Under the pieces are notes generated by a model. The model searched no databases. It worked only from the letters and a program-made list of their open reading frames with translations, and had not been told where the DNA came from. DNA of 64,000 nucleotides from positions 4,499,085 to 4,563,084 of the forward strand of contig NZ_DS544873.1 of assembly GCF_000154725.1 (NCBI RefSeq), in the 5' to 3' direction. Position numbers and translations under genes: made by a program. The stretch is from Kordia algicida OT-1 (GTDB lineage: Bacteria; Bacteroidota; Bacteroidia; Flavobacteriales; Flavobacteriaceae). Positions 24,163 through 29,765 of this stretch are shown here, piece by piece; position 1 is the stretch's first letter; every line of letters starts with the position of its first letter.

Positions 24163-24576
24163 CTAATGCGGCAACTTGTCTTTCAGCAAACCATATACAA
24201 AAGTTCCTAGTAACGAAGCCAGAATCACAATAATGATTGGGAAGAAACCTGCACCAAGAAGTGTAAACATTGGTCCAGGACATGCGCCTGCTAATGCCCA
24301 ACCGAATCCAAATAAAATTCCGCCAAAAGCATAACGTGCAAAACTCTTTTGTTTTGGTGGAAATGATATCTTTTCACCATAAAATGACTTTATTTGAAAT
24401 CGTTTGATAACTTGAATCATAATCATTCCCAAAACCACCGAAACACCAATAATTCCGTACATATGAAAGGATTCAAATTTGAACATTTCATAAATACGAT
24501 ACCAAGAAGCAGCTTCCGACTTAAACATGGTAATTCCAAATACAATTCCGATCAATAAATAAGCAAGTGTTCTCAT
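24163..24576 (-). CDS. YeeE/YedE half-transporter (DUF6691), sulfur uptake
   Basis: A 137-residue membrane protein with four hydrophobic helices and the conserved Cys motif F-G-W-A-L-A-G-A-C-P-G-P-M (about 93-105). It is the second half of a split YeeE/YedE family transporter, thought to move thiosulfate or related sulfur species, the Cys passing the substrate along. Its partner ends 3 bp upstream, so both are one unit. Together with the rhodaneses it indicates sulfane sulfur handling. Confidence 0.9.
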   Translation of the reverse strand: MRTLAYLLIGIVFGITMFKSEAASWYRIYEMFKFESFHMYGIIGVSVVLGMIMIQVIKRFQIKSFYGEKISFPPKQKSFARYAFGGILFGFGWALAGACPGPMFTLLGAGFFPIIIVILASLLGTFVYGLLKDKLPH

Positions 24577-24579
24577 AAT

Positions 24580-25137
24580 TTAAAAAAGTAAAGGGAAAAT
24601 TAAGTGAATCATAATTAGTCCGCCAATAAAAAATCCGATCACGGCAATTAGTGAAGGCAACTGTAAATTACTCAATCCAGAAATGGCATGTCCGGAAGTA
24701 CATCCGCCAGCATAACGTGCGCCAAAACCAATAAAAAATCCGCCAACAATTAGTAATAATATATTTTTAAAATCTGTAAAAACTGCGGTAGAAAATAATT
24801 TTTCAGGCAAATAGGTTTCTCCTGCATTTTCAAATCCTAAAGATTGCAAATCGGCAACAGTATTTGGATTCAAGGCAACTGAAGTTTCTACTGTTAAAAA
24901 TTGATGCGCGATAAATCCGCCAATAATGGCTCCAAGAACGACAATCAAATTCCAGCGTTGTGCTTTCCAGTCAAACTGAAAAAAACGAGCTTTATTTCCT
25001 GCACCACAAATGCTGCAAATAGTGCGTAAATTTCCAGACATTCCAAAATTCTTTCCTACCATAATTAGTAAGAATAGAATCAAAGCAATCATCACGCCTG
25101 AAACATACCAAGGCCAAGGTTCATAAATCCAACTCAT
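24580..25137 (-). CDS. YeeE/YedE family sulfur transporter subunit
   Basis: A 185-residue membrane protein with the typical R-Y-A-G-G-C-T-S-G-H-A-I-S-G-L-S-N-L motif (about residues 141-158), whose Cys is essential in studied YeeE proteins. Five or so helices. A second C-S-I-C pair near 41-44 follows the first helix. It leads the half-transporter operon. Upstream (25185) is a GTAAC-N4-GTTAC site with a T-rich -7 box 22 nt away. Confidence 0.92.
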   Translation of the reverse strand: MSWIYEPWPWYVSGVMIALILFLLIMVGKNFGMSGNLRTICSICGAGNKARFFQFDWKAQRWNLIVVLGAIIGGFIAHQFLTVETSVALNPNTVADLQSLGFENAGETYLPEKLFSTAVFTDFKNILLLIVGGFFIGFGARYAGGCTSGHAISGLSNLQLPSLIAVIGFFIGGLIMIHLIFPLLF

Positions 25138-25154
25138 TCACAAATAATTTTTAA

Positions 25155-25198
25155 CAAAAAAAAGAAAATTATAGTAAGTACAAAGTAACTTTAGTTAC
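25155..25198 (-). promoter_or_regulatory. Crp/Fnr-type site plus -7 box, YeeE promoter
   Basis: GTAACTTTAGTTAC (25185-25198), a 22-nt gap, then TTTTTTTG on the minus strand (25155-25162). The site also lies 40 bp before the methyltransferase gene on the plus strand, so it could serve both directions. Confidence 0.65.
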
Positions 25199-25238
25199 AA
25201 AGTAGCCAAATGTGTATCTGTTTTTTTATTTTAGAGGA

Positions 25239-25835
25239 ATGAAGCAGCAATTATTAACAGAAATTCTAGGAAATGCAGACATTTATTTGATCGATCAAAT
25301 TTTAAAAGGACGTTATCAAAAAAATGATTTGATCTTGGATGCAGGTTGCGGAAGCGGACGAAATTTGCACTATTTCCACGAAAGTGATGTTACTTTTTTT
25401 GCAATTGATTCCAATGAAGAACACATCAAAAACCTTCAAGAAAAATATCCAAAACTAGCGGAAAATTTTAAAGTTGCTGCACTAGAAAAAAATCCTTTTG
25501 CAGACGAGACTTTCGATCATATTTTATGTAATGCGGTATTACATTTTGCAAAAAGTGAAGCACATTTTAAAAAAATGTTTGCCGAATTGGTACGCGTACT
25601 GAAAAAAGGAGGAAGTTTGTTTGTACGAATGACTTCGGATATTGGTATGGAAGGAAAAACTACGCATTTACAAAACGGTGTGTATTTTTTACCCGATGCA
25701 TCGGAACGTTTTCTGCTCACAAGAAACTTGTTGCAAGAAATGTTGACAACGCATCAATTGTCGTTATCAGAACATGTAAAAAGTACTATTGTGAGTGACT
25801 TACGAAGTATGACTACTTTGGTGTTGACGAAATAA
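25239..25835 (+). CDS. Class I SAM-dependent methyltransferase
   Basis: A 198-residue protein from the ATG at 25239, which has AGAGGA directly before it; an upstream GTG frame has no support. Motif I is L-I-L-D-A-G-C-G-S-G-R-N-L (residues 27-39), motif II F-F-A-I-D-S-N-E-E-H, and F-D-H-I-L-C-N-A-V-L-H-F is the third element, as in Methyltransf_11. It lies divergent from the sulfur transporter with the shared GTAAC site between, so its substrate may be a thiol or sulfide, by inference only. Confidence 0.85.
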   Translation: MKQQLLTEILGNADIYLIDQILKGRYQKNDLILDAGCGSGRNLHYFHESDVTFFAIDSNEEHIKNLQEKYPKLAENFKVAALEKNPFADETFDHILCNAVLHFAKSEAHFKKMFAELVRVLKKGGSLFVRMTSDIGMEGKTTHLQNGVYFLPDASERFLLTRNLLQEMLTTHQLSLSEHVKSTIVSDLRSMTTLVLTK

Positions 25836-25837
25836 AA

Positions 25838-26182
25838 CTACTTCCAAGCTTTATAACCGCCTTTTAAATCATAGATTTTTTGAAAACCATTAGCTACTAA
25901 TTTTTTGGCTGCTCGCTGACTTCTATTTCCTGAGCGACAATATAAGTAGATTGGTTTTTCACGATCGAAACTAGCGAAATTTTCGTTGAAATTAGCACGA
26001 TCAAAAAAATCGATATTTATTGCTTTTTCAATATGTCCAGATGTATATTCAAATTTTGTGCGGACATCTACCAACTGTACATCTTTCTTAGAAATTGCTT
26101 CTTTAAATGTTGCAACATCTAAAATTTCAATTTCATCAGAAAGTTTTGATTTATCACCGAATAGAGAATTTAAAAAAGACAT
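25838..26182 (-). CDS. Single-domain rhodanese
   Basis: A 114-residue protein with a rhodanese domain (about 20-113): V-Q-L-V-D-V-R-T-K-F-E-Y-T-S-G-H-I-E-K-A and the active loop Y-L-Y-C-R-S-G-N-R-S, with persulfide-forming Cys near residue 82. It moves sulfane sulfur between thiols. It is convergent with the methyltransferase (2-bp gap). The promoter seems to lie about 330 bp upstream (site at 26543), leaving an unusually long leader. Confidence 0.92.
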   Translation of the reverse strand: MSFLNSLFGDKSKLSDEIEILDVATFKEAISKKDVQLVDVRTKFEYTSGHIEKAINIDFFDRANFNENFASFDREKPIYLYCRSGNRSQRAAKKLVANGFQKIYDLKGGYKAWK

Positions 26183-26325
26183 GTTTTGAGATTTAGGGGA
26201 TTTTTAATTTAACGTGAGTTCGACGTAAGAATTTTAGTTTGAAACTTTTCTTTTCCGAAGTATAGCAGGAGTTTTTCGTTAAAAATTTTCGAAACCTTGG
26301 AGAAAATTTAGAAAAACTCATGCGG

Positions 26326-26356
26326 TTTTAGTTTTTCCATAAAAGAAAAACTAAAA
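26326..26356. terminator. Hairpin in rhodanese leader
   Basis: A perfect 12-bp stem TTTTAGTTTTTC / GAAAAACTAAAA with a 7-nt loop in the 475-bp gap 26183-26657. It may be a terminator or attenuator of the rhodanese transcript. Confidence 0.4.
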
Positions 26357-26371
26357 ATACCTCTGGAAAAG

Positions 26372-26420
26372 TTCCCTTTCTTTTGTTTCTTTTCTTTGGG
26401 TAAGCAAAGAAAACGAAAAT
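26372..26420. repeat. Dispersed flavobacterial repeat
   Basis: CCCTTTCTTTTGTTTCTTTT followed by CTTTGGGTAAGCAAAGAAAA forms an imperfect inverted repeat of a kind I know from many Flavobacteriaceae genomes. It seems to have inserted in the rhodanese leader. Confidence 0.55.
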
Positions 26421-26512
26421 AAAACACTAAAAATGAATTATATAGCAGAATTATTTCTAAAATCACTGTAAATATAAATTGAACGATTTATATCGAACTG
26501 ACGTTAATTTAA

Positions 26513-26556
26513 CAAATGTAACTCGTTAATTGTTGATATACAGTAACTTTGGTTAC
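26513..26556 (-). promoter_or_regulatory. Crp/Fnr-type site plus -7 box, rhodanese promoter
   Basis: GTAACTTTGGTTAC (26543-26556), 22 nt, then TACATTTG on the minus strand (26513-26520), an exact TAnnTTTG. It would drive the rhodanese gene that starts at 26182. Confidence 0.7.
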
Positions 26557-26657
26557 AAAGTTGTTTTTTAATAAATAATATCGAGCACAATTGATCGGTT
26601 TTTTATCGTACCAAACTTTAAAACATCTTCATTTACAATTGCGCTCGATTTATATAT

Positions 26658-28064
26658 TTATAAACTCGTTGGGCACACAAATTCCGATACTGGAATATCT
26701 GTTTCTTTAATCGCTTTAAAACCACCTTCTACATTGATGAGGTTGTGAATTCCTCTGCTTTTTAAGATGGAAGCTGCAATCACGCTTCGATATCCGCCAG
26801 CACAATGCACATAAAATGTATCATCTTTTGGAAATTCGGCTAAATGATTGTTAAGATAATCCAACGGTGTATTTTTTGCTTTTAAAACATGTTCAGATTT
26901 AAATTCGTTTTCACGTCTTACATCATAAACGGGAAGTTCTTGAGTAAATGTATTTTTGAATGTTTCCGTTGTAATAGAACTAATGGTGTCATATTCTTTG
27001 GAAGCTTTTTTCCATGCGTCAAATCCGCCTTTTAAGTAACCAATTGTATTATCGAAACCAACTCTTGATAATCGCGTGATGGTTTCTTCTTCACGACCTT
27101 CGGGCGTTACTAATAAAATGGGTTGTTCAATATCGGCAATCAGCGCGCCAACCCAAGGTGCAAAACTTCCGTCCAAACCTATAAATATAGATCGCGGAAT
27201 GTGTCCCTGCACAAATTCATTTTGATGACGTACGTCTAATACAACTGCATTTGTTTCGTTGGCAATCACTTCAAATTCTGTAGGTAAATAAGCTGTTGCA
27301 CCACGTTTGATGATTTCCGAAACATCGTCATATCCTTCTTTATTGAGTTTCACATTTTCTGGAAAATAACTTGGTGGCGGCAACAAACCATCCGTAACTT
27401 CTTTGATAAATTCAGCTCTCGTCATATCGGCGCGCAACGCGTAATTTACCTTCTTTTGGTTTCCGAGTGTATCAACCGTTTCTTTCATCATGTTTTTACC
27501 ACAAGCCGAACCAGCACCATGTGCAGGATATACAATCACATCATCTGCTAAAGGCATAATTTTGTTGCGTAAACTATCATATAAATGACTTGCTAAATCT
27601 TCTACTGTAATTTCACCAGTTTTTTGAGCTAAATCTGGTCTTCCAACATCGCCTAAAAACAATGTGTCGCCACTAAATAACGCATGATCTTTTCCGTTTT
27701 CATCACGTAATAAATACGAAGTACTTTCCATAGTATGACCTGGCGTATGCAAGGCAATAATGGTAATGTTTCCTAAGCAAAATTCCTCATTGTCTTTGGC
27801 AATGGTAGCTTCAAACGAAGGTTGGGCATTTGGTCCATAAATAATTGGTGCGCCTGTTTTTTTAGAAAGCGTCACATGTCCACTGACGAAATCTGCATGG
27901 AAATGCGTTTCAAAAATATATTTAATTTGTGCGTTTTGTTGTTGTGCTTTGTCCACATACGGTTGTACTTCACGTAATGGATCAATGATAGCAACTTCGC
28001 CATTACTTTCTATGTAATATGCGCCTTGTGCAAGGCAACCTGTATATATTTGTTCTATTTTCAT
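26658..28064 (-). CDS. Persulfide dioxygenase-like MBL protein fused to two rhodanese domains
   Basis: A 468-residue fusion. Residues 1-245 form a metallo-beta-lactamase domain with T-H-F-H-A-D-F-V-S-G-H (about 52-62), H-T-P-G-H-T and F-S-G-D-T-L-F, the pattern of ETHE1-like persulfide dioxygenases. Rhodanese 1 (about 260-360) lacks the catalytic Cys (L-L-V-T-P-E-G-R). Rhodanese 2 (about 365-460) keeps it (Y-V-H-C-A-G-G-Y-R-S, Cys near 420). It likely oxidises glutathione-like persulfides to sulfite. A GTAAC site lies 52 bp upstream. Confidence 0.92.
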   Translation of the reverse strand: MKIEQIYTGCLAQGAYYIESNGEVAIIDPLREVQPYVDKAQQQNAQIKYIFETHFHADFVSGHVTLSKKTGAPIIYGPNAQPSFEATIAKDNEEFCLGNITIIALHTPGHTMESTSYLLRDENGKDHALFSGDTLFLGDVGRPDLAQKTGEITVEDLASHLYDSLRNKIMPLADDVIVYPAHGAGSACGKNMMKETVDTLGNQKKVNYALRADMTRAEFIKEVTDGLLPPPSYFPENVKLNKEGYDDVSEIIKRGATAYLPTEFEVIANETNAVVLDVRHQNEFVQGHIPRSIFIGLDGSFAPWVGALIADIEQPILLVTPEGREEETITRLSRVGFDNTIGYLKGGFDAWKKASKEYDTISSITTETFKNTFTQELPVYDVRRENEFKSEHVLKAKNTPLDYLNNHLAEFPKDDTFYVHCAGGYRSVIAASILKSRGIHNLINVEGGFKAIKETDIPVSEFVCPTSL

Positions 28065-28086
28065 AAGTACTAATTTTAAGATGATA

Positions 28087-28130
28087 TAAAATTAAGAAGA
28101 TAGAATTATGTATACAGTAACTTGTGTTAC
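28087..28130 (-). promoter_or_regulatory. Crp/Fnr-type site plus -7 box, MBL-rhodanese promoter
   Basis: GTAACTTGTGTTAC (28117-28130), 22 nt, then TAATTTTA on the minus strand (28087-28094). Confidence 0.65.
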
Positions 28131-28155
28131 AAAGTGTTATTTTTTTGAATGTGAT

Positions 28156-28953
28156 TTATTGGTTTACAAAAAACTCCATATAGAAGATAAAGATTGCCAT
28201 GACAAAGATGAAATAGCCAAAACCTTTTTTGAGTTTTTTTCCGTCGACAAAGTTTCCTAAGTAGCTTCCGATGAAAATACCAACTAGAGAAATAGCGGTA
28301 AATATTGTCAGGAATTCCCAATCAATTTCCATAGTGAGAGCATCTCCCAAAAGGAAGCCTAATAACGATTTAAACGCAATGATAATGAGTGAAGTTCCAA
28401 CTGCGACTTTCATTTCTACATTTGCCAATAATACCAATGCAGGAATGATTAAGAATCCACCGCCTGCGCCAATCATTCCAGTAATGGCTCCGACGACCAA
28501 ACCTTCAATCAGAATCAAAGGATAGTTATACGATACTTCTCCAGAGCTTATTTTTTCTTTACGTTCTTTGAGCATAGATAGTGCCGCTGGAAACATCAAT
28601 ATGGCAAAAAGTCCAAACATGCCCATTCTGCGCGTAAATTCGAAATTTCCAATAGTAAATAATACGTCTGGCAATGCGGGAACTACATAGTAACGAACGA
28701 GCGAAACTCCGATGATGGCAGGAATTCCGAAAACGATTGCGGTACGCCAGTCGACAAAACCTTTTAAGTGCTGTTTAAGTCCGCCAACTAAAGCGCTCGT
28801 TCCGACGATAAATAGCGAATATGCAGTAGCAACTTTTTCGTTTACTGAAAATAGATATGCGAGTACGGGAACAGCAAGTATAGAGCCGCCACCGCCAATA
28901 AGACCTAGTGAAATTCCAATAATCAAGGCACTAACATAGCCAAGTATTTCCAT
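28156..28953 (-). CDS. TauE/SafE family sulfite exporter
   Basis: A 265-residue membrane protein with about seven helices and the two Gly-rich TauE/SafE repeats: G-L-I-G-G-G-G-S-I-L-A-V-P-V-L near residue 18 and G-M-I-G-A-G-G-G-F-L-I-I-P-A-L near 160. Family members export sulfite or other sulfonate products. It fits downstream of persulfide oxidation by the MBL-rhodanese protein, which would yield sulfite. Own promoter with GTAAC site 53 bp upstream. Confidence 0.92.
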   Translation of the reverse strand: MEILGYVSALIIGISLGLIGGGGSILAVPVLAYLFSVNEKVATAYSLFIVGTSALVGGLKQHLKGFVDWRTAIVFGIPAIIGVSLVRYYVVPALPDVLFTIGNFEFTRRMGMFGLFAILMFPAALSMLKERKEKISSGEVSYNYPLILIEGLVVGAITGMIGAGGGFLIIPALVLLANVEMKVAVGTSLIIIAFKSLLGFLLGDALTMEIDWEFLTIFTAISLVGIFIGSYLGNFVDGKKLKKGFGYFIFVMAIFIFYMEFFVNQ

Positions 28954-28976
28954 AATTGTTTTTAATGTTTGTCAGT

Positions 28977-29020
28977 GCAATGTACAGCGCATGCAATGAT
29001 CTCGCAGTAACTTAAGTTAC
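28977..29020 (-). promoter_or_regulatory. Crp/Fnr-type site plus -7 box, TauE/SafE promoter
   Basis: GTAACTTAAGTTAC (29007-29020), a perfect palindrome, 22 nt, then TACATTGC on the minus strand (28977-28984). It lies 4 bp past the Crp/Fnr stop. Confidence 0.7.
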
Positions 29021-29024
29021 ATAT

Positions 29025-29660
29025 TCAGGCTAAATTTATGATTTTAATATGATTTCTATGCAATTCTATGCGCCCCATTTGTTCTAATTTTTTTAAAAGT
29101 CTTGATATGACAACTCTAGAGCTGTGTAAGTCGTAAGCAATTTCTTGATGTGTGTTGTGAATTGTATTTGTTTTGTTTATACGAATTTTCTCCTTGAGGT
29201 AATTGAGTAATCGCTGATCCATCTTTTCAAATGCAACGCTGTCTAGAATATGCAATACTTCGTTGAGTCGTGTGTGGTAACTTTCAAACACAAAATTTCT
29301 CCAAGTTTTATACTTCGCAGTCCATTCTTCCATTTTTTGAACAGGAACCATGATAAGTTTGGTGTCTTGTTCGGCAACGGCTTTGATTTCGCTTTTGGTT
29401 TGTCCGACACAACAATTCATCGTCATTGAGCAAGTTTCACCACTTTCCAGATAATATAACAGTAATTCGTCGCCTTCTTTGTCTTCACGCATCACTTTGA
29501 TGGCTCCAGAAATTAAAAGAGGCATTCCACGGACATAATCGCCAATAGACATCATGGTAAAGCCTGCGGGAATTTCTTTAAAAGTTCCTACTTGGGCAAT
29601 TTCGTTGAGTAAATCATCTTCAAAAAGATGATCGTAATTGTCTTTGAGTTCTTGAATCAT
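29025..29660 (-). CDS. Crp/Fnr family regulator of the sulfur island
   Basis: A 211-residue regulator. The N-terminal beta-roll (about 20-115) resembles a cyclic nucleotide fold but lacks the usual R-S-A pocket. Three cysteines cluster at 77, 83 and 84 (C-S-M-T-M-N-C-C), a likely thiol or persulfide sensor. A long dimer helix (about 115-150) leads to a winged HTH with recognition helix S-S-R-V-V-I-S-R-L-L-K-K-L-E (about 180-193). Five identical sites in 25.2-29.8 kb, one in front of this gene, suggest it activates the whole island and itself. Confidence 0.9.
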   Translation of the reverse strand: MIQELKDNYDHLFEDDLLNEIAQVGTFKEIPAGFTMMSIGDYVRGMPLLISGAIKVMREDKEGDELLLYYLESGETCSMTMNCCVGQTKSEIKAVAEQDTKLIMVPVQKMEEWTAKYKTWRNFVFESYHTRLNEVLHILDSVAFEKMDQRLLNYLKEKIRINKTNTIHNTHQEIAYDLHSSRVVISRLLKKLEQMGRIELHRNHIKIINLA

Positions 29661-29721
29661 GGATTGCGTTTTTGGACTTCAATGATTGTGATATTTAAAA
29701 GTAATAAAACTAAATAGAAGG

Positions 29722-29765
29722 TAAAATTATTGTTTTTTGGTGCAATCAACAGTAACAAAGGTTAC
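29722..29765 (-). promoter_or_regulatory. Crp/Fnr-type site plus -7 box, Crp/Fnr promoter
   Basis: GTAACAAAGGTTAC (29752-29765), 22 nt, then TAATTTTA on the minus strand (29722-29729), 62 bp before the regulator start. It supports autoregulation. Confidence 0.65.

Follow-up and report, generated by a model that had tools for sequence, protein, structure and literature searches.

The window analyzed here is a 64,000-nucleotide (nt) stretch of the Kordia algicida OT-1 genome (RefSeq assembly GCF_000154725.1, contig NZ_DS544873.1, positions 4,499,085 to 4,563,084 of the forward strand), which contains an island of sulfur genes and, among them, a gene for a Crp/Fnr-family regulator. Five palindromic sites in this island lie at one fixed distance from a promoter box. 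The regulator is very probably a class II activator of a reactive-sulfur regulon of CstB-like, TauE, YeeE, and rhodanese genes, with an NtcA-like mode of DNA reading. Comparison with related genomes leaves both the arrangement and its class II reading well supported. Coordinates refer to the window unless stated otherwise, and published sources are cited as far as their available text goes.

Palindromic sites at a fixed distance from the promoter box

The perfect palindrome GTAACN4GTTAC occurs exactly five times in the window, at positions 25185, 26543, 28117, 29007, and 29752. Dinucleotide-preserving shuffles of the window contain 0.07 matches on average, and none of 100 shuffles reaches five. 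At all five sites, a gap of 22 nt separates the palindrome from a minus-strand 8-mer resembling TAnnTTTG. In coordinate order, these boxes are TTTTTTTG, TACATTTG, TAATTTTA, TACATTGC, and TAATTTTA, matching 5, 6, 5, 4, and 5 of the six defined letters, respectively, so that one of the five is a perfect consensus. Sites, boxes, and spacing had been described in an earlier note on this DNA and are confirmed. The box score summed over the five sites peaks at 25 for a gap of 22 nt; the other gaps between 8 and 44 nt give no more than 17, and 200,000 random draws of five positions within the island gave a mean score of 8.9 and never reached 25. The 22-nt spacing is therefore real. The box upstream of tauE fits TAnnTTGY exactly, better than TAnnTTTG; TAnnTTGY is the SM5 motif, ascribed to an alternative sigma factor in Flavobacterium psychrophilum (PMC9723704).

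The start-site map of F. psychrophilum, a member of the same family, places the sigma-A box TAnnTTTG at -12 to -5 (PMC9723704). Given the 22-nt gap, the palindrome would therefore cover -48 to -35, with a fixed center at -41.5 relative to start sites as mapped in this relative. This agrees with the class II position near -41 proposed in the earlier note. The palindrome is also a GTAN8TAC site, the type centered at approximately -41.5 in NtcA promoters (PMC3898017). From this geometry we infer activation: a dimeric Crp/Fnr protein would bind GTAACN4GTTAC centered at -41.5 of sigma-A promoters, compensate for a weak -33 element, and touch RNA polymerase in class II fashion.

Conservation of the arrangement in related genomes

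A scan of named genomes yielded 80 loci, nearly all labelled Flavobacteriia, of which 75 supply 213 sites with full flanks. In the orientation of the regulator gene, 189 of the 213 sites have a TAnnTTTG box (at least five of six letters) at exactly 22 nt, and 106 have a perfect one there, compared to 0 to 7 sites at each of the other 29 spacings between 10 and 39 nt. In the opposite direction, 14 of the 213 sites have a box at 22 nt (0 to 8 at other spacings), and some sites may therefore serve two genes. In the window, site 25185..25198 also has a weak box (4/6 letters) directed towards a divergent methyltransferase gene. The flanks of the palindrome are conserved as well, with T before it in 90% of cases and T and G after it in 68% and 62%, and the logo of the 80 loci gives the extended motif TGTAACN4GTTACTG-N20-TAnnTTTG. 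Nine of the 213 sites lie inside predicted open reading frames (ORFs). When 136 loci were scanned with bases 3 and 12 left open, 181 sites had the box at 22 nt, versus 0 to 13 at 17 other gaps. A family sample with a single genome for each genus (149 in all) has 190 matches to the perfect composite motif, spread over 94 genomes, and one to its reversed control. Conservation in related genera, one of the checks put forward in the earlier note, thus holds.

A site is found no more than 500 bp upstream of 46 of 58 genes for a metallo-beta-lactamase (MBL)-rhodanese protein, 35 of 42 TauE genes, and 19 of 25 YeeE-A genes; the corresponding counts are 33/79 for crp, 13/39 for rhodanese, and 0/23 for YeeE-B, the second gene of its pair. 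The earlier note had counted rhodanese and the regulator itself among the targets. Each has its site in the window; among relatives, the rhodanese target is weaker, and a copy in the regulator's own promoter is not a universal feature.

The linked regulator as the reader of the sites

As the earlier note held, the Crp/Fnr gene belongs to the set and has its own copy of the site. Its product scores above the gathering threshold for Pfam families PF13545 (HTH_Crp_2) and PF00027 (cNMP_binding), which places it in the Crp/Fnr superfamily, and its fold matches include Crp, NtcA, and FNR structures. The nearest named relatives are Kordia proteins (93% and 90%). The protein remains far below the NtcA equivalog model (TIGR03697, 40 bits; cut-off, 244.95) and the cAMP-CRP model (PRK11753, 44.5 bits; cut-off, 266). 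Its recognition helix, SSRVVISRLL, has RV where that of CRP has RE, and RVVISR aligns with RVTVTR of NtcA. FNR proteins, of the 4Fe-4S type, combine an N-terminal Cys cluster with one central Cys; the regulator does not fit this pattern, as its first Cys is residue 77.

The sites co-occur with this protein. Of the family sample, 126 genomes have a regulator match (E value of 1e-20 or below), and 93 of these contain the composite motif, versus 1 of the 23 lacking such a match (Fisher p = 2e-10, ignoring shared ancestry); three of the 23 (G141, G147, and G148) were so classed by inference, from their absence among the listed matches. The share of genomes with the motif rises with similarity to the regulator, graded by the exponent of the best E value, from 1/10 through 15/31 and 43/51 to 34/34 (E value of 1e-90 or below). 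Within one genus of 23 genomes, the motif occurs in five of five with an E value of 1e-90 or below versus 1 of the 18 others (p = 1.8e-4). Of 395 genomes in a phylum sample, 36 have the motif; 34 of these are among the 154 with a regulator match and 2 among the 241 that lack one.

Covariation between recognition helix and half-site is to be expected should the linked regulator be the protein that reads the sites. In Crp, Glu at the position equivalent to residue 183 favors GTGA. For this comparison, 136 loci were used, the 80 named ones and 56 others hand-picked for diverged regulators (weaker matches, many from one genus). The best regulator has Val183 in 98 loci (SRVVISRLL, resembling STRVTVTRLL of NtcA) and Glu183 in 38 (mostly SREVISRLL); sites at 22 nt are present in 71 and 24 of these, respectively. 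Near Val183, 262 of 302 half-sites have A at base 3 and 28 have G; near Glu183, the figures are 25 and 32 of 60. Counted per site, one or both halves have G at base 3 in 20 of 151 sites near Val183 versus 27 of 30 near Glu183. Val183 hence appears to go mostly with GTAAC sites and Glu183 mostly with GTGA sites, with the spacing alike. Outside the single genus that supplies most of them, there are seven Glu183 sites, five with G and two, both in locus L085, with no G. Both co-occurrence and covariation support the link between the sites and the neighboring regulator gene. The GTGA sites were uncovered by anchoring on the box at 22 nt in place of fixed palindrome patterns; a fixed-pattern search for perfect gapped palindromes in 16 loci gave only two matches.

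Perfect GTGACN4GTCAC sites precede the MBL-rhodanese gene in seven loci despite a linked Val183 regulator (L053, L061, L062, L064, L066, L068, and L071). In six loci (L050, L051, L081, L088, L094, and L100), the regulator is accompanied by another Crp/Fnr paralog, which has Glu183 but no Cys83. These linked paralogs were considered as the cause of the GTGAC sites before MBL-rhodanese genes and rejected, as the two do not coincide.

Candidate targets in relatives and in the Kordia genome

To sample targets regardless of the position of the regulator, 30 of the 190 perfect composite sites were taken in the order in which the scan gave them, one per genome (L124 to L153), and the first downstream ORF was assigned by Pfam. 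Sulfur-type genes follow 16 of the 30 sites: TauE (7), MBL-rhodanese (4), SulP (2), and one each for multi-rhodanese, YgaP-like, and SoxA/TsdA-type cytochrome c. The remainder precede TolC-type efflux (6), peroxiredoxin (1), thioredoxin (1), cytochrome bd (1), and porin (1) genes or genes with no assignment (4). The TolC-type genes (L125, L126, L128, L129, L137, and L149) would form an efflux arm of the putative regulon.

The whole K. algicida genome (5.03 Mb, one contig) contains 13 distinct GTAACN4GTTAC sites versus 21 for the backwards control, and the 14-mer as such is therefore not enriched genome-wide. Five of the 13 lie in the island, seven are inside open frames (four in copies of one repeated frame, one in a 109-codon frame, and two in others), and one is intergenic. 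Sites equally frequent away from sulfur genes would, according to the earlier note, have refuted its reading; in promoters they are not, as the island holds five of the six sites outside open frames. Within the repeated frame (427 to 453 codons), GTAACAATAGTTAC recurs in four copies (L001 to L004, at genome positions 11543, 82005, 716773, and 789198), and an Rfam search of L001, L003, and L004 returned no match.

The intergenic site, at genome position 3390047, precedes the gene of an FNR-like Crp/Fnr paralog and forms a composite with one box mismatch (L155:1501-1544). It may tie the sulfur regulon to oxygen control. On its other side, read by eye, a divergent frame starts with MSETTCFHCG. 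A composite scan allowing one mismatch added a single position outside the island, 4464991, which lies upstream of a DUF983 gene. Near crp in relatives, DUF983 genes are themselves preceded by a site (16 sites; family name checked on one), and 4464991 is therefore an independent match at an unlinked place. When three mismatches were allowed, the scan yielded noise (100 matches versus 160 for the control, which was counted at this level), so only matches with zero or one mismatch were used in this genome, together with the tauE site, which has two.

The regulated set would be one of reactive-sulfur handling, composed of the YeeE/YedE-type pair, the rhodanese, the CstB-like enzyme, TauE, and the regulator itself, and would also include the unlinked DUF983 membrane protein and probably the FNR-like paralog. 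In relatives, it may extend to SQR-like, SulP, YgaP-like, peroxiredoxin, and cytochrome bd genes. For the SQR-like protein, the K. algicida genome yielded no close match (best, 35% over approximately 110 aa).

The putative signal and alternative readings

Cys77, Cys83, and Cys84 are invariant in 20 aligned regulator proteins, and Cys77 is present in all 136 homologs. Cys83 occurs in 101 of 102 homologs linked to sulfur genes versus 23 of 34 that are not linked, a comparison in which ancestry is not corrected for; for some of the 34, sulfur genes may lie elsewhere in the genome or the contig may be cut. The Cx5C pair is located, by eye, approximately where we take Crp to have its phosphate-binding loop. 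It lies between strands 65-72 and 92-96, in the weakest part of an AlphaFold model (pTM, 0.56), and the Cys loop is too weak there for judging Cys-Cys geometry. The conserved pair makes a reactive-sulfur sensor plausible, and the likeliest signal would be persulfide or polysulfide, read by Cys77-x5-Cys83. Known persulfide regulators use conserved cysteines for bridges, but they belong to other families (PMC9774590). A Crp protein of Acinetobacter baumannii has been reported to be persulfidated (PMC7315123).

A more far-reaching proposal combines two elements. In the first, the regulator would be dedicated to reactive-sulfur sensing, with a hypothetical di-, tri-, or tetrasulfide bridge at Cys77/Cys83 (Cys84 in close orthologs) replacing cAMP as the dimer switch; in the second, a natural Val183-to-Glu183 change would have rewired the half-site from GTAAC to GTGAY between sister lineages while core targets and geometry stayed unchanged. 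We regard this combination as tentative, though only slightly short of probable. A regulator that senses another signal (redox state, nitric oxide, oxygen, or a metabolite), with the sulfur genes merely as its output, is a serious contender, if a somewhat doubtful one. All 34 homologs that lack a link to sulfur genes have Cys77, some sites stand before cytochrome bd, peroxiredoxin, thioredoxin, efflux, and FNR-like genes, and HcpR of Porphyromonas gingivalis, a Crp/Fnr protein from Bacteroidota, is among the structural matches (rank 23). Against this stand the bias of Cys83 towards sulfur-linked homologs, uncorrected for ancestry, and the 16 sulfur-type genes among the 30 sampled targets.

We consider it unlikely that the same regulator at the same sites instead acts as a repressor, obstructing the -33 region until reactive sulfur releases it, like CstR or SqrR. 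The site does abut the -33 region, as the T and G after GTTAC indicate, and sigma could be obstructed there by a bound protein. Repressors, however, are as a rule not tied to one phase, and the spacing fixed at 22 nt in 189 of 213 sites therefore counts against repression. Repression is the mode of action of the known sulfur sensors CstR and SqrR/BigR (PMC9774590), whereas -41.5 is the canonical position in NtcA-activated promoters (PMC3898017). That a different Crp/Fnr paralog binds the sites, with the linked regulator as a bystander, is quite improbable: although two first-pass listings give 11 and 14 candidates in the K. algicida genome (not all confirmed as Crp/Fnr) and the intergenic site precedes an FNR-like paralog, the number of sites tracks similarity to the linked regulator, also within one genus, and base 3 of the site follows residue 183 of that regulator. 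Chance palindromes in AT-rich promoters, which the genome-wide count of 13 against 21 might suggest, are refuted by conservation in relatives, by the shuffles of the window (0/100 reaching five), and by the single reversed composite against 190 real matches, and their probability is negligible.

Several observations weigh against class II activation of a sulfur regulon by the linked regulator. Own-promoter and rhodanese sites are limited to the 33/79 loci and 13/39 genes given above, and the perfect composite site is missing from 33 of the 126 family genomes that have the regulator. Conversely, the regulator-less family genome G088 has a composite site, and phylum genomes G372 and G380 have sites and no regulator match; the Fisher tests take no account of shared ancestry. 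Regarding specificity, 23 of the 30 Glu183 sites belong to one genus, L085 has Glu183 and has kept GTAAC sites, and 17 of the 20 Val183-linked sites with G at base 3 (of 151) precede an MBL-rhodanese gene. Among the 30 sampled sites, six precede TolC-type outer membrane efflux genes, four precede genes with no Pfam family, and seven overlap an open frame of at least 110 codons. Finally, pLDDT is below 50 at residues 80 to 86, the Cys loop of the AlphaFold model.

Genes and regulatory elements of the sulfur island

The features of the island are listed in Table 1, in which predicted +1 positions follow the box placement of the F. psychrophilum start-site map (PMC9723704). The CstB-like protein aligns over nearly its full length to PDB 3tp9 (query residues 3-459) and 3r2u (3-453), the latter of which we take to be CstB. 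An MBL domain, a Cys-less rhodanese, and a Cys-bearing rhodanese follow one another in a single chain, presumably the architecture of Staphylococcus aureus CstB, and gene 26658-28064 is by this architecture predicted to encode a CstB-like persulfide dioxygenase-rhodanese. The YeeE/YedE half (24580..25137) has weak TsuA similarity (NCBIfam, 41 bits; cut-off, 400). The rhodanese leader is 326 nt long because a repeat of approximately 300 bp (26207-26509), with 41 matches in the K. algicida genome, sits between the promoter box and the gene. By eye, the rhodanese leaders in two Kordia loci (L044 and L045) are much shorter and lack this repeat.

Table 1. Features of the sulfur island, in window coordinates
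Feature	Position	Strand	Basis
Crp/Fnr-family regulator, 211 aa, proposed activator	29025..29660	-	Pfam HTH_Crp_2 and cNMP_binding; alignment of proteins
Palindromic site GTAACCTTTGTTAC, regulator's own promoter	29752..29765	-	Pattern match
Box TAATTTTA, 5/6 letters of TAnnTTTG; predicted +1 ~29717; 57-nt leader to regulator	29722..29729	-	
TauE/SafE family sulfite exporter	28156..28953	-	Pfam TauE 9.5e-39
Palindromic site GTAACTTAAGTTAC upstream of tauE	29007..29020	-	Pattern match
tauE box TACATTGC, 4/6 letters of TAnnTTTG; predicted +1 ~28972; 19-nt leader	28977..28984	-	
CstB-like protein: MBL fold (persulfide dioxygenase type), Cys-less rhodanese, Cys-bearing rhodanese	26658..28064	-	Domain search; PDB sequence matches
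Palindromic site GTAACACAAGTTAC upstream of CstB-like gene	28117..28130	-	Pattern match
Box TAATTTTA of CstB-like gene, 5/6 letters; predicted +1 ~28082; 18-nt leader	28087..28094	-	
Single-domain rhodanese, 114 aa	25838..26182	-	Pfam Rhodanese 3.4e-24
Palindromic site GTAACCAAAGTTAC upstream of rhodanese gene	26543..26556	-	Pattern match
Rhodanese box TACATTTG, perfect consensus; predicted +1 ~26508; 326-nt leader containing repeat	26513..26520	-	
YeeE/YedE (Sulf_transp) half, gene 1 of transporter pair	24580..25137	-	Pfam Sulf_transp 4.1e-18
DUF6691/Sulf_transp half, gene 2 of transporter pair	24163..24576	-	Profile match
Palindromic site GTAACTAAAGTTAC upstream of transporter pair	25185..25198	-	Pattern match
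Transporter-pair box TTTTTTTG, 5/6 letters; predicted +1 ~25150; 13-nt leader	25155..25162	-	

Comparison with known systems

Among known structures, PDB 3dv8, a Crp/Fnr regulator from Eubacterium rectale, is the best sequence and fold match to the regulator, and both Cx5C cysteines align; identity in the fold alignment is 25%. In gene content, a close parallel is the cst operon of S. aureus, which consists of CstR, TauE, CstA, CstB, and SQR. The two share a three-domain CstB-like enzyme, TauE, and rhodanese, with SQR-like genes present in relatives of K. algicida. They differ in control, since CstR is a CsoR-family repressor (PMC9774590) that governs one operon, while here a Crp/Fnr protein at an activator position would serve five sites before five genes. 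In A. baumannii, YeeE/YedE and persulfide dioxygenase are likewise under one regulator, the persulfide-responsive BigR, and FisR is an activator (PMC7315123). Unlike the Crp/Fnr protein described here, BigR is a homologue of the ArsR-family SqrR (PMC9774590), and FisR is a sigma-54 activator; the available passages on BigR and FisR (PMC7315123 and PMC9774590) describe no Crp/Fnr regulon of sulfur genes.

Outside this phylum, the regulators described for sulfide and persulfide detoxification are of the CsoR, ArsR, and sigma-54 types (PMC9774590 and PMC7315123). In the open-access literature, as far as its available text goes, we found no Crp/Fnr regulator of sulfur genes in Bacteroidota, although earlier work may exist, and nothing on how Bacteroidota control this detoxification. 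The present analysis offers a concrete candidate regulator, site, promoter position, and gene list that are directly testable in non-pathogenic flavobacteria, and the covariation of Val/Glu with A/G amounts to a natural specificity-swap experiment.

In its DNA reading, the system resembles the NtcA regulon of cyanobacteria, with which it shares a GTAN8TAC-type site, an inferred center at -41.5, and a similar helix (RVVISR and RVTVTR). It differs from NtcA in its association with sulfur rather than nitrogen genes, its Cx5CC loop, its TAnnTTTG promoters, and its score of 40 bits against the cut-off of 245. With the site at -41.5 of TAnnTTTG promoters, class II activation together with the unusual sigma factor of Bacteroidota could readily be tested.

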